Below are positions 8,401 to 26,640 of a DNA stretch of 33,637 bases, in pieces. A model generated the notes under the pieces. That model saw only the letters and a program-made list of their open reading frames with translations. It searched no databases and was not told the origin of the DNA. The position numbers were made by a program, and so were the translations under genes. This DNA comes from Limisphaerales bacterium (lineage in GTDB: Bacteria; Verrucomicrobiota; Verrucomicrobiia; Limisphaerales; UBA11358), in contig PLYV01000155.1 of NCBI GenBank assembly GCA_003151855.1, positions 1 through 33,637 on the forward strand, written 5' to 3'. Numbering within the stretch: the first letter of the stretch is position 1; each line of letters begins with the position of its first letter.

Positions 8401-9294
8401 GGTGGCGTGGGAGCGGCGGGTTACGCGGTCATGTCGGGTGGCAGCGTGGCGAGCATCGTGATGACTTCGCCCGGCTATGGCTATTCCTCCGCACCCACCG
8501 TGGTGCTGACGGGCGGCGGCGGCAGCGGTGCGAGCGCCACGGCCCCGGCTCCGACCCCGAACACCAGCGGCGGCATGACGTTCACCGGCGCGGGCACGAA
8601 CATTTTGACGGCGGCCAATACCTACACCGGCAACACCACCGTCAGCAGCGGCACGTTGCTGGTGAACGGTTCAACATCCACCGGAGCGGTCACCGTCAAT
8701 GGTGGCACCTTGGGCGGCACCGGCACGATTGGCGGCGCGGTGACGGTCAACAGCGGCGGCACGCTGGCTCCCGGCGCGGGCATCGGCACACTCACCATCA
8801 GCGGCAACCTCACGTTGAACGCCGGTTCCACGAACGCCTTCGAGGTGGATGGAACCGGGCCGGCTAATGACATGGTCGCGGCCGGAGCGAGTGTGACCTA
8901 CGGCGGTGTCTTGAACATCGTGCCCACCGGCACCTTCAGCAGCGGTCAGACCTTCACCCTGTTCAGCGGTGGCGGTGCGGCCAGCGCCAGCAACTTCTCC
9001 AGCATCGCGGGCAGTCCGGGCAGCGGACTGGGATTCACTTTCACCAACGGCGTGTTGAGTGTCGTCACGACTGGACCGAGCGGTCCGGCGACAATCACCA
9101 ACAGCGTCAGTGGCGGCGTGTTGAGCCTCTCGTGGCCCGCCGGCCAGGGCTGGCGGTTGCAGATGCAGACCAACAGTCTGGCCACCGGGCTTGGCACCAA
9201 TTGGACCTACATCACCGACGGAAGCCTGAGCAGCACCAACATCACGATTGATCCAAGCAAACCCACGGTCTTCTATCGTTTGGCTAATCCATGA
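2413..9294 (+). CDS. Giant secreted autotransporter-associated beta-strand repeat protein
   Basis: Secreted or cell-surface protein of 2293 residues. ATG 2413 is chosen because it gives a standard Sec signal peptide (MKTPMKQ, hydrophobic core LFGALAFVAL, likely cleavage after SSVQA, residue 28); the frame stays open upstream to 2281. The body is Gly/Ser/Thr/Asn-rich with about nine beta-strand repeat cores of the type GTLTLSGANSYSGTTTVAGG, near 2690, 3370, 4405, 5325, 5525, 6450, 7165, 7465 and 8600. Three segments start with a W-x-G ... W ... NW signature (near 2505, 4900 and 6910). A Gly-rich tandem motif (GSGYIGAPAV, then GYGYSSAPTV) sits at 8332-8545. The C-terminus (about 9110-9294) carries GWRLQMQTNSL and ends FYRLANP, as in two other proteins here. 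No autotransporter beta-barrel is visible. Probably a passive fibre, adhesin or scaffold; no enzymatic domain is recognised. Confidence 0.92.
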   Translation: MKTPMKQSVINLFGALAFVALSTSSVQAVSDTWSGSVNSTWDISTLNWNSGASAFTSGHEALFTGTPANNVTAATGLTIGAITLDNTFTGSVALTGANTVGGATTISAGTLSLANSATAAGSSAITVNSPGKLALNASTTADMTYANTVAGAGKVQFLYVSSGGHDIFLHNLGSFTGTIQLSLASGSSSTGGKARLTTTDATLSGTSSLIIDGGTQLYMGTGNNATFANIQVSGTGNTENRGAIRFQSGMLTSPISLMGDTTFGTEGATLPSGSPISAGSSGLKTLTLGGASDKTSGNLTINSIISDGSGQVGLNQLNTGTLTLSGVNTYGGGTTISAGTLSVGNSSALGSGTVAFAGGSLSDSTAVTLPNNFSTATSAGTFSPSSGAMVLNGNITGGNSLTLNPTSKITLAGANSFGTTAAFGSLAVNGGAGGVDITGSTAVANGNSAGNAGYVNVSGTVTVTVQSGGSFAFGATTGATPSGFIGQNAAGTSTLLVNGGSLSIGGNLGLGLGNNIATAIGVLTITNNGMATISAGSTTLQDQRNFIAMGRDNATGIINLAPGTLACGRQFVRDGSSGGTAGSGTASFNFNGGKLQALANQTAGNGWFETATTGNFQVVTTTIMDGGATIDANGFGVNINTVLAHGGVAATDGGLTLTNSSGTGTLTLGGVSTYTGPTVVKAGTLKVTGTVPTATTVNPGGAIGASSGTFGALVTLAAGNSAVNQQDGSASTTTFANGLTLNNGNVLAFDLGSSSDQISVGGTFTHNGTTTINLAVLSGFSATTYTLITGASITATNGFVLGSVPAGFSGTLVSDGANLQVMITQNAPSVAFWKGDVDNKWNSVTGGNNSNWATDSSGATDTVVPPSTPSSVTFAATGAANFSTVLGANFVINDLTLSTANNVTIAGTTNSLTLVNGLLNDTTALNNTLSVSNVVLGGSQTWQNNSANPLTVSSLISGSSALTIGGTGTIVLTSTNNNYNGGTAISAGTLQLGDGTASNGAVSGTVTDNSVLVFANPAAQTFSGAIGGVGQLVKTGAGILTLSSSNSYSSGTIVSNGTLQLNVNAAAGSGAITVNSNLNLNISTVADASLANTVNGGGTINVLLAGNNKTVFAGDMSGFTGAIKVASSGGLGSKAAITSGAVNLSSAASITVSNGGTFYTEIANIAATINVSGTGNNEGLGALRVDNGANISGPVNLQGNATIGGFVGVGTISGVIDDNNQGYGIGSGNAGTINVTALNEVLAGANTYHGVTPWNRPTFTLNLANELALQNSTLNYTAGKLQFDSSVGANAFTFGGLTGSANITLTNTGGASITLSVGNNNSSTTYSGNLSDNALGSSLTKVGSGTLTLSGANSYSGTTTVAGGKLMLNTLQTNATTEIAVNDGATLAVNVSGTNQLAPASYTLGSSVGPVVNEFVSLNSTNFAPVNAGTLTLNGQTTINIIGGSFVVGKKYPLIAYTSIGGAGGFVIGALPRGLVANVITNGANNAIVLNVTASNPVSDVWTGSISTNWDIATTANWLTNGVATFYLDGDNTRFDDTATATNVFVTTPVIPNSVTVSNVSKTFTFTGSAIGGAGSLTKQGSGLLVLSQANTYSGNTVVSNGTLKVATANAIPNGAGKGDVVVGGTLDLNTNSITINGLSGNGTVDTVAGGTPTLTVGNNNASSTFSGTLQNSSGSLALTKTGNGTLVLSGTNAYTGATAVNQGSLNYTGSLGIAPATAAGLLTINNSGNNAIVNVSAPANLQFNNNNPLIGNNAAGAGALYQSGGTLSGVNQFQLGAVTGGSYGYYKLSGGTNTMAELDLGSFNGAAVGVLDMSGGTMNITSWFVPSRGNAAIGMLNMTGGTLNFSGPVGQFQGNWNGGVGTAVINLANASLLAPSANVSLMQTGVAGKLGEINLLTGGLLQANSIAPNSATGSSVLNFNGGTLKANTANATFITANNTAVNVYGNGGTIDNNGANITIPVPLLAPADDGINDPVTVDNGGSGYIGAPAVTFSGGGGVGAAGYAVMSGGSVASIVMTSPGYGYSSAPTVVLTGGGGSGASATAPAPTPNTSGGMTFTGAGTNILTAANTYTGNTTVSSGTLLVNGSTSTGAVTVNGGTLGGTGTIGGAVTVNSGGTLAPGAGIGTLTISGNLTLNAGSTNAFEVDGTGPANDMVAAGASVTYGGVLNIVPTGTFSSGQTFTLFSGGGAASASNFSSIAGSPGSGLGFTFTNGVLSVVTTGPSGPATITNSVSGGVLSLSWPAGQGWRLQMQTNSLATGLGTNWTYITDGSLSSTNITIDPSKPTVFYRLANP

Positions 9295-9355
9295 GTCTGG
9301 TTGACTGGACGAAATGAATTTGCTGCGAGACATGGGGCTTGCAGTAAAAACAGTG

Positions 9356-9389
9356 ACGGGGTGCCGGTTTGGGTTCCGGCACCCCGTTT
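9356..9389 (+). terminator. Rho-independent terminator
   Basis: A perfect 12-bp inverted repeat, ACGGGGTGCCGG (9356-9367) and CCGGCACCCCGT (9376-9387), encloses an 8-base loop and runs into TTTA. It lies 62 bases after the stop of the beta-strand-repeat gene and 29 bases before the pseudopilin start, so it probably ends the first transcript and separates it from the operon that follows. The T-tract is short, so some read-through is possible. Confidence 0.8.
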
Positions 9390-9417
9390 AGTTCATTGAT
9401 TAACATTGCAAAAAAAG

Positions 9418-10287
9418 ATGAAGAAAATGAAAAGTTCGTGGAAAATAGACCTGCGGTTTAAGTCCGCCAAGGCGGGATTCACATTGATTGAACTGCTGGT
9501 GGTCATCGCAATTATCGCAATTTTGGCGGCCATGCTGCTGCCGGCCTTATCCAAGGCCAAGATGAAGGCCCAGTCGATTCCGTGCATGAACAACAGCAGG
9601 CAAATCGCCCTCGGCTGGCGGATGTATGCGGATGAAAGTGGCGATCGTCTGCCTTACGCGGGAACTGATTCTACCGGTCAACGTCCCAACTGGGTCACCG
9701 GCATTTTGGATTTCACCGCCGATAACCCGGTCAATTGGGATGTCAATAATGACCTGACCAAAAGCCCGGTTTATTCCTATGTGAAAAGCACGAAGGTTTG
9801 GTTGTGCCCGGGTGACAAATCAACCGCCATTCACAATGGCGCGGCAGTTCCCCGTGTTCGGAGCATTTCCATGAGCCAGGTATTTGGCGATGGCGAATGG
9901 TTGGACGACGGTCCGAATTCTGCGCAGACGGTTTATCGAACTTACGCCAAACTTACTGCCGTGGTTCGCCCGGTAAACACCTGGGTGACAATAGATGAGC
10001 ATCCCAACAGCATCAATGATGCGGATTTTGCGGTTGTTTGTGTCAATGCCACGTCCGCGACCGGTTGCAAAATTGTTGATTACCCGGCGCCATTTCACAA
10101 TGGTGGAGCGGGACTTTCATTTGCAGACGGACATGCCGAAGTTCATAAATTCAAGAGCAGCCCCATTTTCAATGCGCCGGTAAATTGGACGGCAACTCTC
10201 CTGATGCTTCCCCAAAACGGGACTGCCGCCAACGGTTTGGTAAATGATATTAGCTGGCTGGCTGATAATACCACTGTGTTGAGGTGA
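9418..10287 (+). CDS. Type II pseudopilin-like protein with H-X9-DG motif
   Basis: Secreted or membrane-anchored pseudopilin-like protein of 289 residues. ATG 9418 is preferred over an in-frame TTG at 9406. The basic leader ends at Gly20, followed by the classical prepilin peptidase site [19 protein letters not shown], with the conserved Glu at mature position 5. Next comes the [18 protein letters not shown] segment common to verrucomicrobial and planctomycete members. Near the C-terminus, H227 starts an H-X9-DG motif ([13 protein letters not shown]). These families are very expanded in such genomes and most have no tested function; a role with a type II secretion-like machine is inferred from the leader. 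The next gene starts 4 bases after this stop, with its Shine-Dalgarno site overlapping the end of this gene, so the two are probably translated together. Confidence 0.92.
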
Positions 10288-10288
10288 G
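10281..10288 (+). promoter_or_regulatory. Shine-Dalgarno site overlapping the upstream stop codon
   Basis: GAGGTGAG sits five bases before ATG 10292 and contains the TGA (10285-10287) that ends the pseudopilin gene. It is one of the few clear ribosome binding sites in the window, and it supports both the start at 10292 and translational coupling of the two genes. Confidence 0.7.
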
Positions 10289-10291
10289 CTG

Positions 10292-12076
10292 ATGAATTCC
10301 TTTTTCAAACTATTCTTAATAACTCAAAAGATCGCCTGTGTTCTGGCGGTTTCTGCCGCCGCCCGCACATTGCCCGTCTTGCCGCCGATGCCGGCGATTT
10401 CCAAGCCGCTGCCGCCAGACAGCGTGTCGATGGGCGCGCTGATGAATTCGCCCGAAGTGAAACTGGATTTGCCGATTGCGCCGGGACCGTTTGCGTCGAC
10501 GTGGGCGTCCATCGAGAAAAATTATCCCGGCACGCCGGACTGGCTGCGGCAGGCGAAGTTCGGCATCTGGGTGCATTTCGGCCCGCAGGCATCCGGCGAG
10601 AGCGGCGACTGGTATGCGCGCAAAATGTATGTGCCCGGCACCACGGCCTACAATAATCATCTCAAGAAATACGGCCCGCCGTCCGAGTCCGGCTACAAGG
10701 AAGTCCTGCGCGATTGGAATCCAGACAAACTCGATCCCGCCAAGTTGACGGAGATTTACAAGGACGCCGGCGCGAGGTTCTTGATGATCCAAGGCGTGCA
10801 TCACGACAACTTTGATTTGTGGAATTCGCATTACCAGCCGTGGAATGTCGTCAATCTCGGCCCGAAGCGCGATTTGCTTGGCGAATGGGCCAAGGCGTGT
10901 CGCGCGGACGGCATGCGTTTCGGCGTGACGTTTCATCATGAATACACCTGGTGGTGGTGGCAGACAGCTTTCGGCGCTGACAAGGACGGCAGCCTGACGC
11001 TCGCTGACGGCAAGGGCAAATGGTGGGAAGGTCTCGACCCACGCCGGCTTTACGGCATTGACCTGCGCGAATACAAAGGTGTGACCGAAGCGGCGTATTC
11101 GCCGTGGAGTCCGCCGCCGGCGGGGATTTTCTCGCAACACCTCGATTACGCCAAATGGTATGCCACGCAATGGGCGTTGCGCATGATGGACGTCGTTGAC
11201 CAATATAGTCCCGATTTCATCTACACCGACGGCACGGACCAGCAGCCGTTCAGCGGCAGCGGCACGGGCACCGGCATCAAGGCCGACGCCATGCAGACCG
11301 TCATTGCGGATTTTTATAATACGACGCTGGCCCGGCGTGGCAAGGTGGACACGTTCAGCATCGTGAAGTTCCGCAAAAAAACCAACGGCACGGTGACGAC
11401 CGAGGAGTTCGGTCTGCCGGATCACATCCGCACTGACCAGGCGTGGATCGGCGAGACGCCGGTGGGCGACTGGTTTTACGCGCCAGGCTTCACCTGCGAC
11501 TCCGGCATGATGATCCGTTACATCACCGAAGCCGCGTCGCGCGATGGCAACGCCGCCATCTGCATCTCGCTGCTGCCGGACGGTTCGCTGGATGACGGTT
11601 GCAGGAAAATGCTCAAGGAAGTCGGCGTCTGGATGCGTTGCAACGGCGAGGGCATCTACGGCAGCCACGCGTGGAAAATTCCCGGCGAAGGCGAAATCGT
11701 GAACGGCAAGCTCAAGCAGTTGCCTGGCGGCGCGCTGCGCCAGCACCACGCCGATTTCAAATTCAGTCCGCAGGATTTCCGTTTCACTGTTGGCACGAAC
11801 GGGTGTCTTTATGCCTATTGCCTGACGGTTCCCGCGCCGGGCACGCAACTGAAAATCACCTCGTTCGGCACCGATGCCAAATTGCTGGCCGGACCGGTTC
11901 AATCGGTTTCGCTTTTGGGCGGAACTGACAAGCTGGTTTGGAAACAGGAGCCAGACGGCTTGGTGATTGATTGTCCGAAGCAGATGCCGTTTCGGACCGC
12001 CGTGGGCTTCAAGGTTGAACTGAATCAACCTATTATCAGCGCGTCGGCCAGAAATGATTTTCCGCTCAAGAATTGA
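10292..12076 (+). CDS. Alpha-L-fucosidase-like glycoside hydrolase, family GH29
   Basis: Predicted secreted alpha-L-fucosidase of 594 residues, releasing terminal L-fucose from glycans. An N-terminal hydrophobic stretch (FFKLFLITQKIACVLAVSAAA) looks like a signal peptide. The catalytic barrel begins near residue 83 (WLRQAKFGIWVHFGPQ) and includes GVHHDNFDLWNS and FHHEYTWWWW. The FIYTDG strand places the likely nucleophile at Asp313, equivalent to the WSDG/WNDM Asp of characterised GH29 enzymes. A C-terminal beta-sandwich (about 496-580) follows, with no extra binding modules. The usual Lys of the KHHD motif is replaced (GVHHD), so substrate preference may differ from classical fucosidases. 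It has the same N-terminal leader and domain order as the next gene, so the pair is a tandem duplication. The downstream start is 4 bases after this stop. Confidence 0.88.
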   Translation: MNSFFKLFLITQKIACVLAVSAAARTLPVLPPMPAISKPLPPDSVSMGALMNSPEVKLDLPIAPGPFASTWASIEKNYPGTPDWLRQAKFGIWVHFGPQASGESGDWYARKMYVPGTTAYNNHLKKYGPPSESGYKEVLRDWNPDKLDPAKLTEIYKDAGARFLMIQGVHHDNFDLWNSHYQPWNVVNLGPKRDLLGEWAKACRADGMRFGVTFHHEYTWWWWQTAFGADKDGSLTLADGKGKWWEGLDPRRLYGIDLREYKGVTEAAYSPWSPPPAGIFSQHLDYAKWYATQWALRMMDVVDQYSPDFIYTDGTDQQPFSGSGTGTGIKADAMQTVIADFYNTTLARRGKVDTFSIVKFRKKTNGTVTTEEFGLPDHIRTDQAWIGETPVGDWFYAPGFTCDSGMMIRYITEAASRDGNAAICISLLPDGSLDDGCRKMLKEVGVWMRCNGEGIYGSHAWKIPGEGEIVNGKLKQLPGGALRQHHADFKFSPQDFRFTVGTNGCLYAYCLTVPAPGTQLKITSFGTDAKLLAGPVQSVSLLGGTDKLVWKQEPDGLVIDCPKQMPFRTAVGFKVELNQPIISASARNDFPLKN

Positions 12077-12080
12077 TTTA

Positions 12081-15000
12081 ATGAAACTGAACCGTCGAAC
12101 TTTCGCGCTCCCCGCTGCCATCCTGTTTTCCGCTGGTGTCATCTCTGCGGACGCCTACACGTTGCCGGCTTTGCCGGCGATGCCGGCCGTCAGCGCGCCG
12201 CTGACGCCCAATTCCGTGCCGATGGGCGACCCGGCGGTCTTCCCGGAGGTGAACATGGATTTTGCGATCGAGACCAACGGGCCGTTCGCGCCGACATGGA
12301 CTTCCATCGCGGCGAATGTTCCCGGCAACGGCACACCGGCATGGTTGCGCCAGGCGAAGTTTGGCATCTGGTTTCACTATGGGCCGGAAGCCAATCTCGC
12401 TAGCGGCGACTGGCCCGCCCGGAAGATGTATCAGCCGGGAACAACCGCTTACAACAACCACCTCGCGAACTTTGGCCACCCGACGACGAACGGTTACAAG
12501 GAGGTGGTGAAAGCGTGGAATCCCACCAACTACAGTCCCGCCGGCATGGCGCAGCTTTTCTACAACGCCGGTGCGCGCTTCGTGCTGGTGCAGGGCGTGC
12601 ATCACGATAATTTCGACAACTGGAACTCGCGTTACAATCCGTGGAACATGGTCAACTTCGGGGCGAAGCGCGACACGATGGCGGAATGGACCAACGCCAT
12701 TCGCAACCTGGGCATGCACATGGGCGTGGCGTTTCATCATGAATATAATTGGTGGTGGGACCAGCCAGCCTTTAGCAGCGACAGCACGGGCGCGTTCGCC
12801 GGCATTCCTTACGACGCCGTCACCGCGACAAACGGCACGGGCCTGTGGTGGCAAAACTATGACCCGCGCCGCCTCTACGACATCAATCTGCGCGAATACC
12901 AAGGCATTGATTCACTTCAGTATAACCTGACGCAAGGCATCTTCACGAATCACCTCGGCTTCGCGCACTGGTATGTGACGCAATGGGCGCTACGGATTTT
13001 GGACGTGGTGGAAAATTACGATCCGGATTTCATCTATACCGACGGCAATTCGACGCAGCCGTTCAGCGGCTACCTGAGCGGCAGCGGTTACAAGTGCGAT
13101 GGGATGCAGCGCGTCATTGCGCATTTCTACAATCGCACCTTGGAGCGACATGGGAAACTGGACACGCTGGCCGTTGTCAAATTTCATGATGTAAACCACA
13201 ACAACGGCGGCCTAAGCGGCGATCACATCGGCACGACTTACGAAGGCAACTTCTCCTCGACCATCAAGAGCGACCAGCCGTGGTTTGCGGAAATGGCGAT
13301 TGGAGATTGGTTTTGGTATCCCGGTATTTCCTATGACAACGGCGGCTCGATTGTCTATCGCCTGCTCGAAGCGATTTCGCGCGACGGCGCGATGATGGTG
13401 AACATTCCCAACCGCCCCGATGGCGCGCTGGACAGCGGCGCAACCAATATGTTGCAAGGCGTGGGCCAATGGATGGCCATTCACAGCGAAGGTGTTTACG
13501 GCAGCCGCGCCTGGGGCAAGCCGACTGAGGGCAATTTCCGTTTCACCGTTGGCACCAACGGATGTCTTTATGCGTTTTATGAAGGCATTCCTTCGGGCGG
13601 AACCAAGATGACCATCGCTTCGCTCGCCACGAGTTCAAATCTGCTCGTCGCGCCGATCACTTCCGTTTCATTGCTCGGCAGCGCCAGCGCGTTGACTTGG
13701 TCGCAGACTTCAACCGGGCTAGTCGTGACGTTGCCGGCGACAATGCCCAGCTTGCCGTCGGGCACGGCGATTGGTTTGAAGATCGGCCCGTCCACGGCCG
13801 TCGGCAGCGCCACGCCGGCGAATGTCATCGCTTTGCCGAAAACCAATCAAATCAACTTGTCATGGTATTGCCCGTCGGCCACGGCGACATTCAACGTGAA
13901 ACGCTCGCTGACGCACGGCGGATCATACACGGCCATTGCGACGAACCTCACGGCAATGGCTTTTAACGACACCAATGTTTCGCCCGGCGCGCTTTATTTT
14001 TATGTCGTCACCGCCGTGGACGCTGCCGGCGAATCTGTGAAATCTTCCGAAGCCTCCGCGTCGCTGGTCGCCGCGCCTTCGACCAACTGGTTGACGGAAG
14101 ATGTCGGCGCGGTCGGGGCGACGGGTTCTTTTGGTTTGACCAACAGTATTTTCACTATTCAAGGTTCCGGCGCGGACATCTGGAATTCAGCCGATGGATT
14201 CCGCTATGTCTTTCAGGCGTTGACCGGCGATTGCTCCCTCACGGCGCGCGTGCTGAACCTGCAAAACACCGCTGGCTGGGCCAAGGCTGGCGTGATGATC
14301 CGTGAAACGCTCGATGCCTCGTCACAATATGTCATCAACTTCATGTCGCCGGCAAATGGCACGGCGCTCCAACAACGCAGTGGCACCGGCAGCTCGGCTG
14401 CCGGCGTGACCGGAAACACCGGCTTGGCCGCGCCGTATTGGCTGCGGCTGGTTCGCACCAACGACACGTTTACCGCGTTTATTTCGGCCGACGGCACCAA
14501 TTGGATTCAGTCCGGCACCACCACCGTGGCGATGAACGCCAATGTCTATATCGGCCTCGCCGTGTGCAGCCACGTTGACGGCACGCTCTGTCAGGCGCAG
14601 TTCGACAACGTGACATTTTCCAATTCGTCTTCCCCGGTGATTGCCTCGCCACTGCCGCCGTTGATCCATCGCTACAGTTTCGACGAAGCCAGCGGCGGCA
14701 CGGCCCACGATTCTGTCGGCGGGGCGGACGGCACCTTGAATGCCTCTGCGACCTTCGACGGCGGCGGCCGCGTGGTTTTGGATGGCACCAGTGGAACTTA
14801 CGTCACGTTGCCGGCCAACTTGCTCGCCGGCCTTTCCACGGTCACCATTGACGCCTGGTTTTCCCTGACCGTGCCGAACAACAATGTGCATCTGTTTTCC
14901 ATGGGCAACGGCAATGGCACCGGTTCCGGCGGCAGTTACCTGCGCTATAACCTCTTCGACAGCGGCCATGGCCACGGCGGCACGAATTTTTTTGAAAGCG

Positions 15001-15533
15001 TCATTTCGTCGAGCGGCAACCTCCTGCATGGCGGGGCGGTATTGCCGACGAACAACACGCCGGTGCATGTCACGCTGGTCTATGATCCGGTCGGCGGCAT
15101 GAAATCCATTTACCTCAACGGCGCGCTGTCCTCAACTTACAGCGGGCCGCTCGCCGCGTTGAGCAGTTATCCGCAAAATTTCTTTGCCTTGGGCCGCTCG
15201 CCCTGGAACAGCGACCCGAACTTGAAGGGAACGATTGATGAATTCCGCATTTACTCCGGCGTCCTGACGCCGCCAGACATCGCGGCCGCGCAAACGGTCG
15301 GACCGGATGTCCTGCTCACGACCAATGTTTCGCTGGCCGTTTCCCAAGGCAACGGATCGCTGACACTAAACTGGCCGGTGGCCGGTTCAGGTTTCACGCT
15401 GGTATCCAGTTCCACCTTGGGCACCAATGCCGTTTGGACTCCGGTCAACCTCACGCCCTCCGTCATCGGCGGAAACAACCAAGTGCCTGTCAGCATGACC
15501 AATACAACCCTGTTCTTCCGGTTGCAGAGATAA
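12081..15533 (+). CDS. Multidomain secreted GH29 alpha-L-fucosidase with FN3, DUF1349-like and LamG modules
   Basis: Predicted secreted fucosidase of 1150 residues. ATG 12081 is chosen, 4 bases after the previous stop; an in-frame ATG at 12054 would overlap that gene. The leader MKLNRRTFALPAAILFSAG has a twin-Arg followed by T-F, so Tat export is possible. Domains: GH29 barrel (about 87-483; VHHDNFDNWNS, FHHEYNWWW, likely nucleophile Asp321 in FIYTDG), beta-sandwich (486-572), fibronectin III (579-665), a DUF1349-like concanavalin fold (669-850; WAKAGVMIRETL), LamG/pentraxin-like lectin domain (860-1068; GTIDEFRIYSGVL), and a C-terminal domain ending in FFRLQR. The extra modules suggest carbohydrate binding or matrix attachment. 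It resembles the preceding gene closely through the catalytic part. The substrate is inferred only from family. Confidence 0.9.
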   Translation: MKLNRRTFALPAAILFSAGVISADAYTLPALPAMPAVSAPLTPNSVPMGDPAVFPEVNMDFAIETNGPFAPTWTSIAANVPGNGTPAWLRQAKFGIWFHYGPEANLASGDWPARKMYQPGTTAYNNHLANFGHPTTNGYKEVVKAWNPTNYSPAGMAQLFYNAGARFVLVQGVHHDNFDNWNSRYNPWNMVNFGAKRDTMAEWTNAIRNLGMHMGVAFHHEYNWWWDQPAFSSDSTGAFAGIPYDAVTATNGTGLWWQNYDPRRLYDINLREYQGIDSLQYNLTQGIFTNHLGFAHWYVTQWALRILDVVENYDPDFIYTDGNSTQPFSGYLSGSGYKCDGMQRVIAHFYNRTLERHGKLDTLAVVKFHDVNHNNGGLSGDHIGTTYEGNFSSTIKSDQPWFAEMAIGDWFWYPGISYDNGGSIVYRLLEAISRDGAMMVNIPNRPDGALDSGATNMLQGVGQWMAIHSEGVYGSRAWGKPTEGNFRFTVGTNGCLYAFYEGIPSGGTKMTIASLATSSNLLVAPITSVSLLGSASALTWSQTSTGLVVTLPATMPSLPSGTAIGLKIGPSTAVGSATPANVIALPKTNQINLSWYCPSATATFNVKRSLTHGGSYTAIATNLTAMAFNDTNVSPGALYFYVVTAVDAAGESVKSSEASASLVAAPSTNWLTEDVGAVGATGSFGLTNSIFTIQGSGADIWNSADGFRYVFQALTGDCSLTARVLNLQNTAGWAKAGVMIRETLDASSQYVINFMSPANGTALQQRSGTGSSAAGVTGNTGLAAPYWLRLVRTNDTFTAFISADGTNWIQSGTTTVAMNANVYIGLAVCSHVDGTLCQAQFDNVTFSNSSSPVIASPLPPLIHRYSFDEASGGTAHDSVGGADGTLNASATFDGGGRVVLDGTSGTYVTLPANLLAGLSTVTIDAWFSLTVPNNNVHLFSMGNGNGTGSGGSYLRYNLFDSGHGHGGTNFFESVISSSGNLLHGGAVLPTNNTPVHVTLVYDPVGGMKSIYLNGALSSTYSGPLAALSSYPQNFFALGRSPWNSDPNLKGTIDEFRIYSGVLTPPDIAAAQTVGPDVLLTTNVSLAVSQGNGSLTLNWPVAGSGFTLVSSSTLGTNAVWTPVNLTPSVIGGNNQVPVSMTNTTLFFRLQR

Positions 15534-15614
15534 ATTGCCGGTTTATGTTTCATGACAAGACCACACCGCACGTTAACAAAATCAATTTCGCAACCACGTC
15601 CATTTGAAAAACCA

Positions 15615-18600
15615 ATGAAAAAAATCACCATCAGCCTGCTTGCTGCGATTGTCCTGGCTTTTGCTCCGGCCGCCGTCGCCCAAAGCTTGCAGACCTATTT
15701 TAACTTTACGACCTATGGCACCCAGAGCGGCGGGGCCGCGCTGGCGGATTTGACGGGGCACACGACGGCCACCCTGAATACGGAAGCGCATACGACCTTG
15801 ACGGGCAGCGGCCTGACCATCAGCAGTGGCGGAAGTTCTTTGAGCACCGGCGTGACGATCGGCAGCGCGGCCATGAGCGGCTTCACCGGAGCCTTCTCGA
15901 TCCAACAGTGGGTCACGCTGGCGGCGGTGAATAATAATCAGGTTTTGTTTGGAGCCAATAACGGCGCCGTTAACTTATACGTCGGCGATGGTATCACCAT
16001 CAGCACCGTGATCGGTGCGATCCGGGGTGGAGTTATCAGCGCTTACGTTGGCGGCAGAACGCCAAGTTATGTTCAAGGTGGCTATGGGGTTGCCGATGGT
16101 TCCGGCGCCGCTTCCACGGCGACCCTCTATGACGTGGTGTTGACCTACGACGGCACCTCTTTCCGCGAATATGTTAACGGCACTTTGAAAGGCACATTAA
16201 ACATGCCCACCTTCGGCAGCCTGGCCCAGGCCTGCTCGACCGATTCCTACACGGGCAAGAGCGGTTTTGCCATCGGCGGCGGGCTGAATGACCCTTTCAC
16301 CGACACCACCCTGCCTGAAACCACGAGCGACTTCCTGCTTTACAACGGGGCGTTGAGCCTGGCCCAAATCACTTCGCTTCACAATCTCGGTGCGGGAGCC
16401 AGTTTGAGTGCCGTCACCAATGTTTTTGCACCGTCCGCCAAAGATGTTTGGAGCGGCGGTGGCGGTGACAACACTTGGACCAATGTGGCCAACTGGGTGT
16501 CGGGCAGCGCGCCCAATGGCGGCGACTATGTGACGTTCGCGGGGACGGCGCAAACCAATGTGAACCTGGTCGCCAGTATTTATTTGGGATCGCTGACCTT
16601 CAGCAACAATGCCGGCAGTTTCACCATCACCAACAGCAGTTGCACGCTGACGCTGGCGGGCGGCCTGACGAACAATTCGGCGAACCCGCAAACCGTGGCG
16701 GTGCCGGTCAGTCTGGGCACGAACCAAATCATCAATGCGGCGGCGGGAAATGTGGCGCTCACCGGCGGAGTTTCCGGCAGCACATTGACGATTGTGGGCA
16801 ACGGCCGGATGGTGACGCTTTCGGGAGCGAACACTTACGCGGGCAACGTGGCCATTCAGGGCAGCAGCCTTTTGGTGCTGGGGAACACCGCCGCCCAGAC
16901 CAACTCGGGCGCGGTCACCGGCACTGGCATATTGGTGAAGAGCGGGGCGGGCACTTTGGTGCTGGCGGGCACGAACAATTTTACGGGAACGACGACGGTG
17001 AGCAACGGCACGTTGCTGGTGACGCAGGTGTCCGGTCAATCGCTGGGCACGAACCTCACCGTGCTGGGCGGGGCGACGTTCGGGATCACGGCCTCGGCGG
17101 ATGCGAGTTATTTGTCGCCGGCAACAATGAAGGTTGGAAGCGGCAGCAGCGGGGCGACGTTGCAGTTTGGCATCGCGGGCACGAACAATGCGCCGCTGAA
17201 GCCGACCACCTTGACATTGAGCGGGACGACGACGATCAACATCACCCAATGTCCGTATGCCCTGACGAATTTTCCGCTGTTCACCGGTTACACCGCCGGC
17301 ACGCTGGCGCTGGGCGCGCAGCCGACGGGATGGACGGGGCAGTTGACGGTCAGCGGCGGGACGGTTTATTACACGGTGACCAGTTTGGATCCCAATTTGA
17401 AGCCGTTTGTGCATCCGGGGTGTTTGAGCACGCTGGCGGACTTGCAACGCATGAAGGCAAAGGTGCAGGCCGGGGCGCAGCCGTGGGCGGCGGCCTTTGA
17501 TGCCCTGGCCAACAACCCGAAATCATCCGCCAGCTATACGGCCTATCCACATCCGAATCCCTGTCGGGGCGGCGCCTGCACCAGCATGGGCTTTTCGCAA
17601 GACTACCTGACCATGTGCCGCGATGCGAACGCGGCCTACCAATGCGCCTTGCGTTATCGGATCACCGGGGATCCTGCGTTTGCCGACGCCGCCGTCCGTA
17701 ACATGGACGGGTATGTGGCCACCGTGGTGTCGCTGGAAGGCGATTCCAACATAACGCTGATGCAGGGTGCGCAAGGCTATCAATGGGCCTGCGCGGCGGA
17801 ATTGATGCGGGATTATCAACCTTGGGTTGACTCGGGCGGCTTTGGGCGGTTTCAGAATTTTCTGCTCACGAAGTTTTGTGATGGTCTGGTCCGGTTTCTG
17901 CAATACCACAACGGCACCTGCTGGTCGCATTACTGGTTGAACTGGGATTTGTTTACGATCGACGCCGTCGCGGCCATCGGCGTGGTCTGCGACCGGCGCG
18001 ACATCTACAATGAGGCGATCAACTATTACCAGAGCGGCGTGGGCAACGGCAATGCCCATAATGCCTTGTATTTCATGCATCCGGGCTATCTGGGGCAGTG
18101 TCAGGAGATCGGACGCGATCCGGGGCACTCCTCGGCGGATGCCGTTTTGCTGGGACAGTTTTGCGAGGTGGCTTGGAACCAGGGCGACGATATGTATGCC
18201 TACAACAACAACACCTTGCTGGCCATCAGCGAATACACGGACAATATGATGACAACGTGGTGGAATACCCCCTGGGTCAACTACGTCGGTTGCGACGTGG
18301 CGCAAGTGCAAGTGGCCTTTGGCACCCAGTATCGTCCCGGCGCGGATTTGATTTGGAATCATTATGTGAACCGGAAGGGATTGGCGGCCCCCTTCACCAT
18401 GCCGTGGGCCATTGGTGGGCGGCCGGAAGGCGGCGGTGGCAATTATGGCGAGACCAGCGGTGGCTATGACCAGATCGGTTTCACCACGCTCACCCACGCG
18501 CTGGATCCGATTACGAACTCGCCCGCGCCGAGCGGAGTGGTGGCGGAGGCGCGCAATGCGAACGAGGCGCTGGTGTGGTGGTGGGGCAGCGCCTATGCGA

Positions 18601-21600
18601 CGAGCTACAAGGTCAAGCGGTCCACTTCCATCAACGGGCCGTTCACCCAAGTCGGCACGGTTGCGGGCAATTGGACACTCCTGTTCACGGATTATTGCCT
18701 AACGCCGGGAACGACCTATTACTATGTGGTGTCGGCGGTGGTGAACGGCGTGGAGACGACCAACAGCCTGCCGGCGAGCGTGCTGGCGAATCAGCGGTTG
18801 ACCGGCTGGGTGATCGGCACGTCCGGCGCCTCCACCTACGGCCAGGGGATAGCTCAGCTTTTTGATAACGCGCCCATCACCTTTTTTGACGCCCCCACTG
18901 CGAGTGGCGGTTGGGGTGGGCTGGATTTGAGCGCCCCTTATGTCATCACCAAGGTGGGCTATTATCCGCGCGCCAGTTTTGCTTGGCGGATGACGGACGG
19001 CCAGTTTCAAGGGTGCAACGTGGCGGATTTCAGCAGCGGCGTGGTGACGCTTTACACGATTGGCAGCCAACCGGCGGATGGAACGACGACAGTGCAGACT
19101 GTCTCCAATCCCGGTGCGTTCCGTTATGTGCGTTACATCGGGCCGGACAACGGCTATTGCAACGCGGCGGAAATCCAGTTCCAAGGCTATCCGAGTCCGG
19201 CGCTGGCGCCATCGGTGCCGTGGGGCTTGGCGGCTGCCGAGGGCAGTGCGCAAGTGACGCTGACGTGGAGCGGAGCCGCTGGCGTCACCGGATTCAACTT
19301 GAAACGCGCCACCACCTCCGGCGGACCTTACACCCAGATCGCGACCAACCTGACATCCGCCTATTACGTGGATACGAACGTGTTGAATTACACGACGTAT
19401 TACTATGTGGTGACAGCCATCAATGCGACCGGTCAAAGCGGCAATTCATCTGAAGTGAGCGCGACGCCGTCGGACATGGCGTTTTACTACAAGTTCGACG
19501 AGAGCAGCGGCACGACGGCGGCGGATGCAAGCGGCAATGGCAACAGCGCCAGCCTGATGAGCGGGGCCACTTGGACGACCGGCATTTTCAGCAACGCGGT
19601 TCATTGCGACGGCACCACCAACGGCTATCTGACTCTGCCGTCGGGAGTGGTCAACGGAATCAGCGATTTCACGGCGTCGGTGTGGGTAAAGACGGATGTG
19701 AGTGCGATGTGGGCGCGGGTGTTTGATTTTGGTTCCGGAACGGGGACGTATATGTTCCTGGCCCCGGTCAACAGCGCGGGCAAGGTGCGCTACGAGATTA
19801 TCAACGGAGGCGTCGTGCAGGATCTTGACAGTCCATCGGCCATGTCCGTTGGCGTTTGGCATCACCTGGCGGTGGCGCAGTCGGGCACGACGGGCATTCT
19901 GTATGTGGACGGCGTGGCGGTCACGACCAACAGCAGCATGACGCTCAATCCGTCCAGCCTCGGAAACACAACGCTAAATTACATCGGCAAATCGCAATGG
20001 GCATCCGATCCCAATTTGACCGGCAGCGTGGATGATTTCCGTGTTTACACCCACGCCTTGAAATCATCGGAAGTTCTCGCCCTGGCGCTGACGCCTTCCA
20101 TTCCGGGCGGATTGACGGCCGTGCCGGTGCCGGGCAATACGCAAGTGGCATTGAGTTGGAACGCCGTGAGCGGAGCGACGAGTTACAACTTGAAACGCGC
20201 GCCGGTGAGCGGCGGAAGTTACACCACCGTGACTAACATTACCGGAACCAGCTTCACGAACACTGGGTTGGTGAACCTGACGACGTATTACTATGTGGTC
20301 GCAGCGGTGACAGCCAAGGGCGAAACGCCGAATTCGGCGGAAGTGAGCGCCACGCCTTACAACAGCGCGCCGCCGGTGCCGTTGAACCTGACGGCCACGC
20401 CGGGAAACGGACGCGCGATCCTGCGCTGGAACGCCGCCTTGACCGCCAGCGGATACAAACTCTGGCGTTCGACGACGAGCGGCAGCGGCTATGCACAGAT
20501 CGGCAGCCCCTCGGGCACCAGCTACCTTGATTTGGGGGTGACGAACGGGGCGGTTTATTACTACGTCGTATCGGCGACGAACAATCTGGGCGCAAGCGCC
20601 ACCTCGACGGAGGCGAACGCCACACCGCATTTGATCACGGTGGTTTGGAGCGCGGCGCTGAACAACATTTGGGATTCCACCTCGACCAACTGGCTGGATG
20701 GCGGGACGCCCACGCTTTATCAGGATGCGGACACGGTAACGTTTGACGACAGCGCCACCGGCTCGACAACGATCTCGATTCCGGCAGCGGTCACGCCCTT
20801 GCAGGTCAATGTCAACAACACTGCGGTCACTTATGCCATCAACGGCAGCGCGATTGGCGGAACGGGGAGCCTAGTCAAGTCTGGTTACGGAACCTTGGCC
20901 TTGAACAGCGCAAACAGCTATAGCGGCGGCACGACGAACAATGGCGGAACCATTAACCTGGGCAATGGCGGAGCCTTGGGCACGGGTCCGTTGGTGCTGA
21001 ACGGCGGCGTGCTGGGGAACCTGGTGCAAATGACCTTCGCCAACAACATCGTCATCGGCAGCGGCGCCAATGCGATTCAACTGGCCAGCGGGAACAACCT
21101 GACGTTGCCGGGAACAGTGTCGGGGAATGGCTCGCTGACGCTGGGCAACAGCGGCAACGGGTCCTCGCTGTATCTGTCTGGCACCAACGCGATGAGCGGC
21201 GGCATGGTGCTCGTGGCCAACAACGCCAACTATGTGCGCTTTGCCTCGCCGGCGGCCGGCAATGCCAACGTGGACTGGCTGTTCCTCAACGCGAACGCCT
21301 GGCAGACGTCGTTTGATTTTGGGAGCGGCACGATCAACTTCGGCTCGCTGTCGGGCGACGGAGGCATGCAGGACAACGTCATCGGTTCGATGAATGTGAC
21401 CCTGCAAGTGGGTGGCAACAACCACCCGGCGACCTTCTCCGGTGTCATCCATGACAATGGCACGGGCACGGGACCGATTGGGCTGACGAAGATCGGCACG
21501 GGCACGCAGTGGCTGACCGGGGCGTGCGATTATTCCGGCGCGACCATTGTGAGCAACGGCGAGTTGGTGGTTTCCACGGCGCTGGCCGGCATGAGCAGTT

Positions 21601-23801
21601 GCAGTGTCAGCAGCGGTGCCACCTTGGGCGTGACCAACCTTTCATCCAGTGCGGGCACGATCTCAAACCTGACGTTGGCGGCGGGCAGCACTTTGGAACT
21701 GATGAACATGACGAGCCTGGCGGTGCCATTCCTGACGGGCAGCAATGTGGTGGTGAGTGGCGTTTGCACGGTGAAGGTCACCCAGGCGGCCTCGACGATT
21801 GCGCAGGGCACCTATCCGCTGGTGAACTATGCGGGCAAGTTCCAGGGCAGCTTTGCAAGTCTGCAGTTGCAGTTGCCGTCGGGCATCAGCGGCGTGCTGG
21901 TGAGCAATGCCAATCAGATTGCGTTGACCATCACGACGGTTACCGTGCCGCCGGCCCCGGCGACGCTGGCGGCCATTGCCGGCAGTGCGCAAGTGACGTT
22001 GAACTGGAGTTCGGTCTTCAGCGCCACCGGTTATAATATTTGGCGCTCCACGACCAGCGGCAGCGGGTATTCGCTGGTGGCCGGCAACTCTGGCACCAGC
22101 TACACCGACACGGGTTTGGTGAACAATCAGACCTATTATTACGTCGTGACCGCCACCAACATTGCCGGTGCCAGCGGCTATTCCCCCGAAGCCAGCGCCA
22201 TGCCACAACTGAGTTCGGTCTGGACGGGCGCGACCAATGCCAACTGGGATTTCACGACCACCAATTGGTCTCGCAATGGCACCACCGCCACCTATGCGAA
22301 CAATGGGATCACGCGTTTTGACGACACAGTATTAAGCAACGCCACCATCAATGTTGCGACGACGGTGTCGCCGATGATGATGGTGGTGAGCAACTCTGTT
22401 CAAAGCTATGCCTTCTCCGGCAGCCCCATCACCGGCACCGGCAGCTTGAGTAAGTGGGGTTCCAATCCGCTGACGATGAGCGGCGCGAACACCTACAGCG
22501 GCGGAACCACCAATTACTCCGGCAGCATCGTTTTGGGCGCCAGCTCCACCGGCAGCGGCAACAGCGTCACGTCCGGCCCGTTGGGCACCGGCAAGGTGAC
22601 CTTGAGTGGCGGCACGTTGCAAATGAACGCTCAAACGCTGGGCAATAATCTTTTCGTCTCATCCAACACCACGAGCATCGTGGAAAATAGTGTCAACAAC
22701 GGAACCCTTGGCGGGAATGTAACTGGCAGCGGAACCATCACCATTCAAAACTCCAGCGGCACCAGTCTTTCTGATATCCTTACCGGCGACTGGAGCGGGT
22801 TCGCCGGCACGGTGAGCTATTATGCCTCGGCTAGCATTAGGACCATCAATCTCTTCGCGCAGGCCGCCAGCGGCACCTTTGTGGCGACCAATTCGATCTG
22901 GAGCCTTTCCAGTCCATCGAACACTGGCTCGCGGCTGTCTGCCGGCAACGCCGGCACGACGAATATTCTGCTCGGCGCGCTTTCCGGTCCTAGCGGTTAC
23001 CTCGATGACAATAATTTTGGAGCCGGCAACATCCTCACTTTTTACATCGGCTACTTGAATACCAACACGACGTTTGGAGGCATCATTGAAAATCAGTATG
23101 CCGGCACGACGGCGCTGACGAAGGTCGGCACGGGCACGTTGACGTTGACCGGCGTGAACACCTACACCGGCAACACGACGGTGAGCAATGGCATGCTGCT
23201 CATCACCACCGTATCGGCGGCGAAGGGAAATTACACCGTGGCCAGCGGCGCGACGCTCGGCGTCAATAACACGTCGAGCAGCTCGGCCTTGGTTTCCAAT
23301 CTCACCGTTGTGGCCGGGTCAAAACTGGAGTTTCAGAACGTCGCCAGCCCAACGATGTCGCTGATCGCCGCGAGCAACGTGACCGTGAGCGGCAGTTGCG
23401 CGGTGAAGCTCACGGGCACGGGCGGGCTGGCGGCTGGCAACAGCTATCCGCTGGTCAGTTACGCCGGCACGTTGGGTGGCACTTTTGCGAACCTGCAATT
23501 GCAGATGCCCTACGGCTGGCGCGGCACGCTGGCGCAGGTCGGCAAACAAATTGTGCTCACCAACGTGGCGGTGGTTTCAACCGTGCCGCCGCAAATGAAT
23601 CTGGCGATATCCAACCAGCAATTCCAAATTGTCTGGCCGCAGGCCAACACCGGCTGGCGATTGCAGGCGCAGACCAATTCGCTGAATTCAGGACTTGGCA
23701 CCAACTGGGCGGACGTATCGCTCGCGGTTTTCACCAACCAGATCACCGTTCCGATGGTAATCTCTAACGGCGGCGTCTTTTACCGGCTGATTTATCCATG
23801 A
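15615..23801 (+). CDS. Giant secreted protein with alginate-lyase-superfamily domain, LamG, FN3, discoidin-like and beta-strand repeats
   Basis: Secreted protein of 2728 residues. ATG 15615 gives a clean signal peptide (MKKITISLLAAIVLAFAPAAVAQS); the frame is open to 15552. Approximate domains: LamG-like (20-270); first beta-strand-repeat block opening WSGGGGDNTWTNVANW (275-590); alginate-lyase-superfamily alpha-toroid (592-964); FN3 (966-1060); discoidin/F5-8C-like (1063-1193); FN3 (1196-1286); LamG (1290-1494); two FN3 (1495-1673); beta-strand block (1676-2112); FN3 (2113-2196); beta-strand block (2200-2655); C-terminal domain ending FYRLIYP. The lyase part starts HPGCLSTLADLQRMKAKV and has GQCQEIGRDPGHS (R834, H838) and AWNQGDDMYAYNNNTLL, typical of the family. 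Probable beta-elimination of a uronate polymer (alginate, glucuronan or another); specificity cannot be read from sequence. It follows the fucosidases with an 81-base gap and is likely in the same transcript. Confidence 0.88.
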   Translation: MKKITISLLAAIVLAFAPAAVAQSLQTYFNFTTYGTQSGGAALADLTGHTTATLNTEAHTTLTGSGLTISSGGSSLSTGVTIGSAAMSGFTGAFSIQQWVTLAAVNNNQVLFGANNGAVNLYVGDGITISTVIGAIRGGVISAYVGGRTPSYVQGGYGVADGSGAASTATLYDVVLTYDGTSFREYVNGTLKGTLNMPTFGSLAQACSTDSYTGKSGFAIGGGLNDPFTDTTLPETTSDFLLYNGALSLAQITSLHNLGAGASLSAVTNVFAPSAKDVWSGGGGDNTWTNVANWVSGSAPNGGDYVTFAGTAQTNVNLVASIYLGSLTFSNNAGSFTITNSSCTLTLAGGLTNNSANPQTVAVPVSLGTNQIINAAAGNVALTGGVSGSTLTIVGNGRMVTLSGANTYAGNVAIQGSSLLVLGNTAAQTNSGAVTGTGILVKSGAGTLVLAGTNNFTGTTTVSNGTLLVTQVSGQSLGTNLTVLGGATFGITASADASYLSPATMKVGSGSSGATLQFGIAGTNNAPLKPTTLTLSGTTTINITQCPYALTNFPLFTGYTAGTLALGAQPTGWTGQLTVSGGTVYYTVTSLDPNLKPFVHPGCLSTLADLQRMKAKVQAGAQPWAAAFDALANNPKSSASYTAYPHPNPCRGGACTSMGFSQDYLTMCRDANAAYQCALRYRITGDPAFADAAVRNMDGYVATVVSLEGDSNITLMQGAQGYQWACAAELMRDYQPWVDSGGFGRFQNFLLTKFCDGLVRFLQYHNGTCWSHYWLNWDLFTIDAVAAIGVVCDRRDIYNEAINYYQSGVGNGNAHNALYFMHPGYLGQCQEIGRDPGHSSADAVLLGQFCEVAWNQGDDMYAYNNNTLLAISEYTDNMMTTWWNTPWVNYVGCDVAQVQVAFGTQYRPGADLIWNHYVNRKGLAAPFTMPWAIGGRPEGGGGNYGETSGGYDQIGFTTLTHALDPITNSPAPSGVVAEARNANEALVWWWGSAYATSYKVKRSTSINGPFTQVGTVAGNWTLLFTDYCLTPGTTYYYVVSAVVNGVETTNSLPASVLANQRLTGWVIGTSGASTYGQGIAQLFDNAPITFFDAPTASGGWGGLDLSAPYVITKVGYYPRASFAWRMTDGQFQGCNVADFSSGVVTLYTIGSQPADGTTTVQTVSNPGAFRYVRYIGPDNGYCNAAEIQFQGYPSPALAPSVPWGLAAAEGSAQVTLTWSGAAGVTGFNLKRATTSGGPYTQIATNLTSAYYVDTNVLNYTTYYYVVTAINATGQSGNSSEVSATPSDMAFYYKFDESSGTTAADASGNGNSASLMSGATWTTGIFSNAVHCDGTTNGYLTLPSGVVNGISDFTASVWVKTDVSAMWARVFDFGSGTGTYMFLAPVNSAGKVRYEIINGGVVQDLDSPSAMSVGVWHHLAVAQSGTTGILYVDGVAVTTNSSMTLNPSSLGNTTLNYIGKSQWASDPNLTGSVDDFRVYTHALKSSEVLALALTPSIPGGLTAVPVPGNTQVALSWNAVSGATSYNLKRAPVSGGSYTTVTNITGTSFTNTGLVNLTTYYYVVAAVTAKGETPNSAEVSATPYNSAPPVPLNLTATPGNGRAILRWNAALTASGYKLWRSTTSGSGYAQIGSPSGTSYLDLGVTNGAVYYYVVSATNNLGASATSTEANATPHLITVVWSAALNNIWDSTSTNWLDGGTPTLYQDADTVTFDDSATGSTTISIPAAVTPLQVNVNNTAVTYAINGSAIGGTGSLVKSGYGTLALNSANSYSGGTTNNGGTINLGNGGALGTGPLVLNGGVLGNLVQMTFANNIVIGSGANAIQLASGNNLTLPGTVSGNGSLTLGNSGNGSSLYLSGTNAMSGGMVLVANNANYVRFASPAAGNANVDWLFLNANAWQTSFDFGSGTINFGSLSGDGGMQDNVIGSMNVTLQVGGNNHPATFSGVIHDNGTGTGPIGLTKIGTGTQWLTGACDYSGATIVSNGELVVSTALAGMSSCSVSSGATLGVTNLSSSAGTISNLTLAAGSTLELMNMTSLAVPFLTGSNVVVSGVCTVKVTQAASTIAQGTYPLVNYAGKFQGSFASLQLQLPSGISGVLVSNANQIALTITTVTVPPAPATLAAIAGSAQVTLNWSSVFSATGYNIWRSTTSGSGYSLVAGNSGTSYTDTGLVNNQTYYYVVTATNIAGASGYSPEASAMPQLSSVWTGATNANWDFTTTNWSRNGTTATYANNGITRFDDTVLSNATINVATTVSPMMMVVSNSVQSYAFSGSPITGTGSLSKWGSNPLTMSGANTYSGGTTNYSGSIVLGASSTGSGNSVTSGPLGTGKVTLSGGTLQMNAQTLGNNLFVSSNTTSIVENSVNNGTLGGNVTGSGTITIQNSSGTSLSDILTGDWSGFAGTVSYYASASIRTINLFAQAASGTFVATNSIWSLSSPSNTGSRLSAGNAGTTNILLGALSGPSGYLDDNNFGAGNILTFYIGYLNTNTTFGGIIENQYAGTTALTKVGTGTLTLTGVNTYTGNTTVSNGMLLITTVSAAKGNYTVASGATLGVNNTSSSSALVSNLTVVAGSKLEFQNVASPTMSLIAASNVTVSGSCAVKLTGTGGLAAGNSYPLVSYAGTLGGTFANLQLQMPYGWRGTLAQVGKQIVLTNVAVVSTVPPQMNLAISNQQFQIVWPQANTGWRLQAQTNSLNSGLGTNWADVSLAVFTNQITVPMVISNGGVFYRLIYP

Positions 23802-23848
23802 TGCGGCTGGCCAAGAAATTTATCGGCAACCTCGACGAGGAAATCATC

Positions 23849-23866
23849 CGTGAAATGACTTTCACG
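23849..23866. repeat. Hairpin, 7-bp stem
   Basis: CGTGAAA (23849-23855) and TTTCACG (23860-23866) pair perfectly around a 4-base TGAC loop, 48 bases after the stop of the giant gene. There is no T-run, so it is not a standard Rho-independent terminator, but it is the first hairpin in the convergent spacer. Confidence 0.5.
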
Positions 23867-23941
23867 AGACATCGCAGCCAGACCGTTCCGGGACGCGTCG
23901 GCTGGGGCGACAGCCGAATCCATGCAGTTGGATTTGGGGGC

Positions 23942-23982
23942 GCACGCGTCCCGCGTGCTGCCGACGGCGTCGCGCCGTCGGC
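23942..23982. repeat. Double hairpin, REP-like
   Basis: Two back-to-back perfect hairpins: GCACGCG/CGCGTGC (23942-23948 with 23952-23958, 3-base loop), then GCCGACGGCG/CGCCGTCGGC (23960-23969 with 23973-23982, 3-base loop). The tight loops, high GC and intergenic setting resemble REP/BIME-type dispersed elements. The second shares the 11-mer GACGGCGTCGC with a hairpin at 32709-32733. Confidence 0.65.
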
Positions 23983-24057
23983 TTCGTTCCACCAGCTTCC
24001 ACACCGTTCAGTGAAAGAAAGTTTGTGGAACCGGGTTTTTGGCGCGACGCCGAAAAC

Positions 24058-24076
24058 CACACGCCAGAGGCGTGTG
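24058..24076. repeat. Hairpin, 8-bp stem
   Basis: CACACGCC (24058-24065) and GGCGTGTG (24069-24076) form a perfect stem with a 3-base AGA loop. It is the last of the GC-rich hairpins in this spacer and may belong to the same composite element as those at 23942-23982. Confidence 0.55.
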
Positions 24077-24106
24077 TGCTCCCCATTTCTACTGCATGGT
24101 TCCGGC

Positions 24107-24161
24107 TTAATCGTAATCGGCAGAAAACAGGGATTAAGATTAGGATTACGATTGAGATTAG
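24107..24161. repeat. GATTAN hexamer tract with inverted copies
   Basis: Five consecutive hexamers GATTAA, GATTAG, GATTAC, GATTGA, GATTAG occupy 24132-24161. Two hexamers in the opposite orientation (TTAATC, GTAATC) lie at 24107-24118, so AATCGTAATC (24109-24118) can pair perfectly with GATTACGATT (24144-24153). The tract is AT-rich within a GC-rich spacer. Confidence 0.65.
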
Positions 24162-24209
24162 GACACTGCCGGCAAGATCGCCCGTTGGCGGGGAGCCCAT
24201 CCGTCCGGC

Positions 24210-26594: not shown

Positions 26595-26640
26595 TGGCCG
26601 GGGAAGAATACAACGCAAACTTTCGGCGGCAAAATATATT

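Follow-up and report, generated by a model that had tools for sequence, protein, structure and literature searches.

To our knowledge, how polysaccharide-degrading enzymes are delivered and held in those Verrucomicrobiota loci that lack a SusCD pair is an open question. The polysaccharide utilization loci (PULs) of Bacteroidota, by comparison, are of the SusCD type, and propeller-type histidine kinases are one kind of sensor found with them. Two further systems stand among the closest described. According to the accessible part of its report, the alginate gene cluster of Verruconatronum alginivorum contains a pulG-like pseudopilin, for which the genome encodes 67 homologous proteins, and a pseudopilin is among the genes over-expressed on alginate (PMC13274419). 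In the pectate lyases Pel3 and PelI, Fn3 loops are described, in the available portion of the source, as a determinant of type II secretion (PMC7949064). Here we analyse a 33,637-nucleotide stretch of a Limisphaerales genome (the window; GCA_003151855.1, contig PLYV01000155.1, positions 1 to 33,637 of the forward strand), which carries a candidate glycan-degradation cassette whose largest proteins end in a shared C-terminal domain, termed here the FYRL tail, and which includes a pseudopilin gene.

We propose that this locus is one of several paralogous, SusCD-free, PUL-like glycan-degradation cassettes, whose tailed proteins would exit by a pseudopilus-type system, a reading that we hold to be evenly poised. 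The elements on which it builds, namely the layout, the tail family with its C-terminal position, the pairing in four genomes, and the enzyme families and predicted folds, are all read from sequence. An initial annotation had described an operon of four consecutive plus-strand genes, and the map of open reading frames (ORFs) bears out both the genes and their stop-to-start gaps of 4, 4 and 81 bases. That unit was, however, drawn too narrowly, as it extends to a PATR repeat giant and a Ser/Thr kinase upstream (Table 1). The overlooked giant (2281-9294) ends in a domain that two of the four proteins also carry at their C-terminus, and it matches the cassette layout of sensor kinase, tailed non-enzymatic repeat protein, hairpin, pseudopilin and enzymes, some of them tailed. 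A protein family scan of 18 window ORFs agrees with the earlier statement that no SusCD-like pair, sulfatase or transporter is present among them.

The C-terminal ends of the PATR giant, the second GH29 protein (GH29b) and the lyase giant are alike over ~70 amino acids. In an alignment of ten tails, W, W, F and L are invariant and R is nearly so (F-x-R-L). None of the ten matches a Pfam or NCBIfam family, and their comparison with curated models of PEP-CTERM and type IX secretion sorting domains gave a best E of 0.042, to an unrelated family. A profile search of the window's own genome (3.82 Mb in 331 contigs, 70% complete; the window contig is C228) returned 44 tail copies at E <= 0.01. The best 30 of these, for which loci were drawn up, all lie within 6 amino acids of the stop; weaker matches can be internal (5 of 26 in one listing). 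The tail is present in 111 of 116 sampled Limisphaerales genomes (own included), with up to 52 matches per genome among the candidates scored, themselves at most 52 per genome. Outside the order, 20 of the 144 genomes sampled from the phylum carry it, 19 of them with one to five matches and one with 15. Across the neighbourhoods of lyase relatives (80 named loci, 1.57 Mb, 74 not labelled Verrucomicrobia), tails occur in three, all labelled Verrucomicrobia subdivision 3, which corresponds to the order Limisphaerales in NCBI taxonomy; a fourth locus (L250, Verrucomicrobiia) yields one tail under a looser setting. The AlphaFold2 model of the tail is a small all-beta domain (predicted local distance difference test score 83.1, predicted template modelling score 0.67), which resembles immunoglobulin (Ig) and Fn3 domains at background level only. 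Among the matches listed from open-licence papers, we found no published description of the tail, of tail-pilin pairing, or of such cassettes.

Association of the tail with pilin genes was examined in four Limisphaerales genomes from four families, including the window's own. There, a pilin start lies within 500 bases downstream on the same strand of 9 of the 44 tails, where uniform placement expects ~0.15. At up to 800 bases in the three other families, 6/46, 6/38 and 7/55 tails are paired, against 0.21, 0.13 and 0.22 expected, and these counts are lower bounds, as the underlying pilin list holds 150 of 204 entries. No pilin starts on the opposite strand were found after tails in these three genomes. 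The tail-plus-pseudopilin arrangement is present in all four genomes examined, and accounts for 28 of 183 tails, several pairs depending on weak tail matches (e.g., C38, E 0.0018).

Recognised glycosidase or lyase genes come next in 15 of the 28 pairs (48 downstream genes listed, 28 scanned with Pfam), a purely descriptive link. They follow six of the nine pairs in the window's own genome: GH29 in the window and at C312, a lyase giant and GH29 at C274, a lyase giant and GH31 at C310, GH62 at C56, and GH5 at C38, where C312, C274 and the C310 lyase giant were named by similarity to window proteins. Of the rest, C256 is cut by a contig end, C201 precedes a 208-amino acid gene without family, and C59 has no co-directional neighbour within reach. 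The C274 lyase giant (L110, 6886-13828) is split over two frames, by a real frameshift or an assembly error, and its pieces were searched apart. In the other genomes, enzymes follow 9 of 19 pairs (GH76, GH106, GH115, PL11 with GH2, GH16, GH38 with a sugar transporter, GH2, GH78 and GH127); of the other ten, three lack a co-directional neighbour and one has too little sequence, and the remainder precede a sigma factor, an AraC regulator, a di-haem oxidoreductase, BNR repeats and two PATR proteins. At C321 a pilin remnant follows the tail, then GH43 with LamG. In a genome of the same genus (G022), a kinase is followed in turn by a LamG tail protein, a pilin, GH29 and a tailed GH29.

In the window, the Ser/Thr kinase is likely to act as sensor of the cassette, and other cassettes also have kinases upstream. 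A LamG-bearing kinase and an extracytoplasmic function (ECF) sigma factor lie 5' of the C310 cassette, and propeller histidine kinases lie 5' of C56, C59 and C38, with LuxR-type regulators adjoining those of C56 and C59. A Ser/Thr kinase with a C-terminal LamG domain (L143, 574-3579) adjoins an ECF sigma factor 5' of a tail-pilin pair, and is possibly a polysaccharide-sensing receptor kinase. Small PEP-CTERM-type proteins are encoded divergently, 5' of tail genes, in L099 (1435-2226, by Pfam match), and, by eye, in L105 (1745-2494) and L144 (492-1298).

Table 1. Features of the cassette in the window.
Feature	Position	Strand	Evidence
Ser/Thr protein kinase with TPR repeats, 5'-truncated at contig edge	2..1972	+	Pkinase 162 bits, TPR
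PATR repeat giant, 2,337 amino acids	2281..9294	+	nine PATR stretches, no other Pfam family
FYRL tail of PATR giant	9085-9291	+	tail profile E 6.3e-24
Conserved hairpin separating tail giant and pseudopilin; resembles a terminator or attenuator	9356..9387	+	12 pairs
Prepilin-type (pseudopilin) protein, DUF1559-like	9418..10287 (ORF also from 9406)	+	TIGR02532, N_methyl, DUF1559
GH29 glycosidase a (GH29a), without tail	10292..12076	+	Pfam GH29
GH29 glycosidase b (GH29b), with fn3-, DUF1349- and LamG-like regions	12081..15533 (longest ORF from 12054)	+	Pfam
FYRL tail of GH29b	15321-15530	+	tail profile
Lyase giant, 2,728 amino acids	15615..23801 (longest ORF from 15552)	+	Pfam
Uronate-lyase-fold domain of giant, (alpha/alpha) toroid	17400..18560	+	predicted model
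Carbohydrate-binding-module-like domain of giant	18792..19196	+	2yb7 E 9.8e-30, 5g56 E 6.7e-48
FYRL tail of lyase giant	23586-23798	+	tail profile

The true start of the PATR giant may be downstream of 2281. The lyase giant is ordered as PATR, lyase domain, fn3, carbohydrate-binding-module (CBM)-like domain, LamG, PATR and FYRL tail, with six PATR stretches; despite these repeats, no type V autotransporter translocator family was found in either giant. The export signals claimed for these gene products are visible by eye in the three larger proteins. Among named relatives, the one nearest to the lyase domain (80% identity) lies in a metagenome-assembled genome of an uncultured member of Verrucomicrobia subdivision 3 (L220, CAIQKM010000197.1), which keeps the gene order: PATR giant (82.5%, partial), hairpin, GH29a (78.3%), GH29b (81.0%) and lyase giant (82.8% over 2,741 amino acids). 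No pilin was found there: homology ends shortly past the hairpin, and a tblastn search for the window pilin is empty at that place.

The hairpin between giant and pseudopilin had been called a strong terminator, a description that is half right. Its stem is exceptional (10 of 12 pairs are G-C), but the T-tract that follows is weak on the plus strand (GTTTAGTTCA). The RNA fold of 9330-9420 reaches -35.9 kcal/mol (z -4.36). Terminator-like sites in 8000-25000 number 20, equal to the shuffled mean of 19.8, such that only the exceptional stem sets this hairpin apart. The stem-loop (9358-9385) has eight copies in the own genome at <=3 mismatches, all in pilin orientation and within ~400 nucleotides 5' of a pilin motif (C228, C256, C274, C312, C222 and C293) or of a remnant (C310 and C321), and in six of eight copies it lies 62-76 nucleotides past the stop of a tail gene. 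Across nine copies (these eight and L220) the hairpin is 96-100% identical to that of the window, while the flanks range from 20 to 88%. The remaining 48 genomes of the genus gave four single matches with 1-3 mismatches, against one for a reversed control pattern, and the hairpin was not seen in the tail-pilin gaps of the three other families. It looks like a lineage-specific terminator or attenuator, either retained by selection or spread by recombination.

The pseudopilin assignment stands, with N_methyl (34.7 bits) and DUF1559 (28.0 bits) both above cut-off, and the prepilin cleavage and methylation motif also recognised by TIGR02532 (32.2 bits, cut-off 16.3). The protein scores far below the cut-offs of the GspG/H/I models; for the GspG major pseudopilin (TIGR01710) the score is 26.7 bits against 88.85. 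Nor does it reach the cut-offs for the Verru_Chthon pilin cassette (TIGR02596, 23.8 against 70 bits; TIGR02599, 13.8 against 256.5 bits). Six pilins of the nine own-genome pairs are open (C228, C312, C274, C56, C201 and C38), those at C59 and C256 have undetermined bases in the pilin start, and C310 retains a remnant. Undetermined bases fall in the repeated pilin start at L144 6305-6306 and in the C59 pilin (L146, 9749-10900), so near-identical pilin starts may break assembly. A search for secretins, the only secretion component sought, gave four matches in the own genome and five in each of the three others, one of these under the cut-off.

The GH29 calls are secure at 216.9 and 200.2 bits (cut-off 25.2), and the two proteins share 56% identity over 450 amino acids. 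An Asp of GH29a, which we take to be the nucleophile, and the HHD residues align with 7ljj; only the HHD part of GH29b falls inside the printed alignment with a solved member. The initial annotation proposed a substrate with fucose and uronate. Polysaccharide degradation, GH29 and a uronate-lyase fold hold up; fucose is not established, because the solved protein closest in sequence to both is BpGH29, which is an exo-alpha-L-galactosidase (7ljj, 7lnp and 7snk). They may be alpha-L-fucosidases or alpha-L-galactosidases, and the sequence-network cluster of BpGH29 also includes fucosidases, as far as the accessible part of that report goes (PMC11189522). Paralogs of GH29a at C312 (90% identical) and C88 (86%) make three copies at 86-100% identity in one genome, a recent expansion; the C88 copy adjoins a further gene. 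The alginate-lyase-superfamily domain matches PF05426 at 30.7 bits (cut-off 22.2), and its predicted model adopts the toroid lyase fold of the PL5/PL17/PL38 superfamily. Solved alginate lyases are far from it in sequence (best profile E 0.0013, PL5), and PL5 membership was rejected, as by eye His192 of A1-III faces Trp and Tyr246 faces a gap or Thr. By itself, the enzyme set of the operon is ordinary.

In the proposed cassette, the sensor would detect the polymer, after which the tailed repeat giant would be made and exported. Proteins may cross by Sec into the periplasm, where the pseudopilin may join a type II secretion-like pseudopilus, secretin genes being present, and the Fn3/Ig-like tail might be the part handled by the export or surface-attachment machinery. 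The giant would keep the polymer at the cell surface, and outside the cell tailed and untailed enzymes would strip side sugars, GH29 probably taking off terminal L-fucose or L-galactose, and the lyase domain putatively cleaving a uronate-containing backbone by beta-elimination. The hairpin may keep pilin and enzymes at a lower level of expression than the giant. The pseudopilins linked to alginate use in Verruconatronum (PMC13274419) and the part played by Fn3 loops in secretion of Pel3 and PelI (PMC7949064) lend the scheme support from other systems.

Two observations weigh against this scheme: at L220, C310 and C321 the pilin is lost or defective, and no pilin lies directly 3' of 35 of the 44 own tails. 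Pilin function would therefore have to be shareable. Tentatively, we entertain the possibility that the FYRL tail serves as sorting domain for a so far undescribed, order-wide Limisphaerales route of export and surface display, in which the paired pseudopilins pass binders and enzymes that carry the tail to a type II-like machine and through it, the pair being both a SusCD counterpart and a marker of glycan loci. The abundance of unpaired tails, the likeness of the tail to Ig/Fn3 domains, and the richness of its partner proteins in LamG, PATR and Ig-like domains would suit a tail that only caps the ends of large surface proteins, as a terminal Fn3-like domain of structural use, in which case the pseudopilins would form adhesive or polymer-catching fibres in attachment-and-digestion islands with no special export route. 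This we judge unlikely, given that the tail almost always forms the very C-terminal end of proteins that are otherwise unrelated, is largely restricted to one order, and is carried by enzymes as well as repeat proteins.

That the window holds an ordinary operon for a polymer of fucose and uronic acid, in which the pseudopilin is a standard part of type II secretion and the tail has no bearing, would account for two GH29 genes and a uronate-lyase fold in one gene run, for the short gaps, and for the gene order kept in L220. It is nonetheless improbable, as the pseudopilin falls so far short of the GspG/H/I models, the nearest solved GH29 is an L-galactosidase, and the tail-pilin unit elsewhere precedes GH62, GH5, GH43-, GH106- and GH115-type genes, and so is not tied to fucose. 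Recent duplication or recombination, copying the tail 3' end, hairpin and pilin start together, with pilins often decaying and little functional coupling, could explain the GH29 copies at 86-90% identity, a hairpin near-identical amid differing flanks, the pilin remnants in C310 and C321, and the loss in L220. As the main source of pairing and hairpin we consider it most improbable, since the pairing recurs in three other families, without the window hairpin in its gaps and with unrelated enzymes next.

Downstream of the cassette, the opposite strand encodes a hybrid histidine kinase, and housekeeping genes lie there too. The kinase (24210-26618, minus strand; HAMP, GAF, HisKA, HATPase and receiver) is convergent with the cassette, and may be a second regulator or unrelated; by eye, GATTA-type words recur in the intervening gap (24100-24170). 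The ybeY gene (28035-28553) contains a 7-base tandem repeat, TTTCCGC, of 4.4 copies at 28281-28311.

The proposed SusCD-free cassette resembles a Bacteroidota SusCD-type PUL in its co-located sensor, large presumed binding protein, and glycosidases and lyases, and three other cassettes of the same genome, preceded by propeller-type histidine kinases, are alike in the kind of sensor too. It differs in that the window ORFs scanned have a pseudopilin and tailed repeat giants instead of SusC and SusD, with no transporter in the cassette. With the Verruconatronum alginivorum alginate operon it shares a pseudopilin inside or co-induced with a verrucomicrobial lyase operon, and a genome with pilin homologs by the dozen; V. 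alginivorum is assigned to the Opitutales-related bacteria, not Limisphaerales, and the accessible part of its report mentions neither a shared C-terminal domain nor a tail-pilin pair (PMC13274419). Type IX secretion C-terminal domains and PEP-CTERM are likewise short, extreme C-terminal domains on many unrelated proteins of one lineage, but the ten FYRL tails match no such Pfam or NCBIfam model, and a PEP-CTERM protein occurs as a separate gene beside a cassette (L099). The Fn3-bearing, type II-secreted pectate lyases Pel3 and PelI, as far as the available portion of the source describes them, are also among the closest known systems (PMC7949064), while the lyase domain differs from the PL5, PL17 and PL38 alginate lyases, at 12-14% identity. 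A lineage-wide C-terminal domain paired with pseudopilin genes could serve as a marker for finding Verrucomicrobiota glycan loci, and the cassette gives a hint of enzyme delivery by a route that differs from the familiar system of gut Bacteroides.
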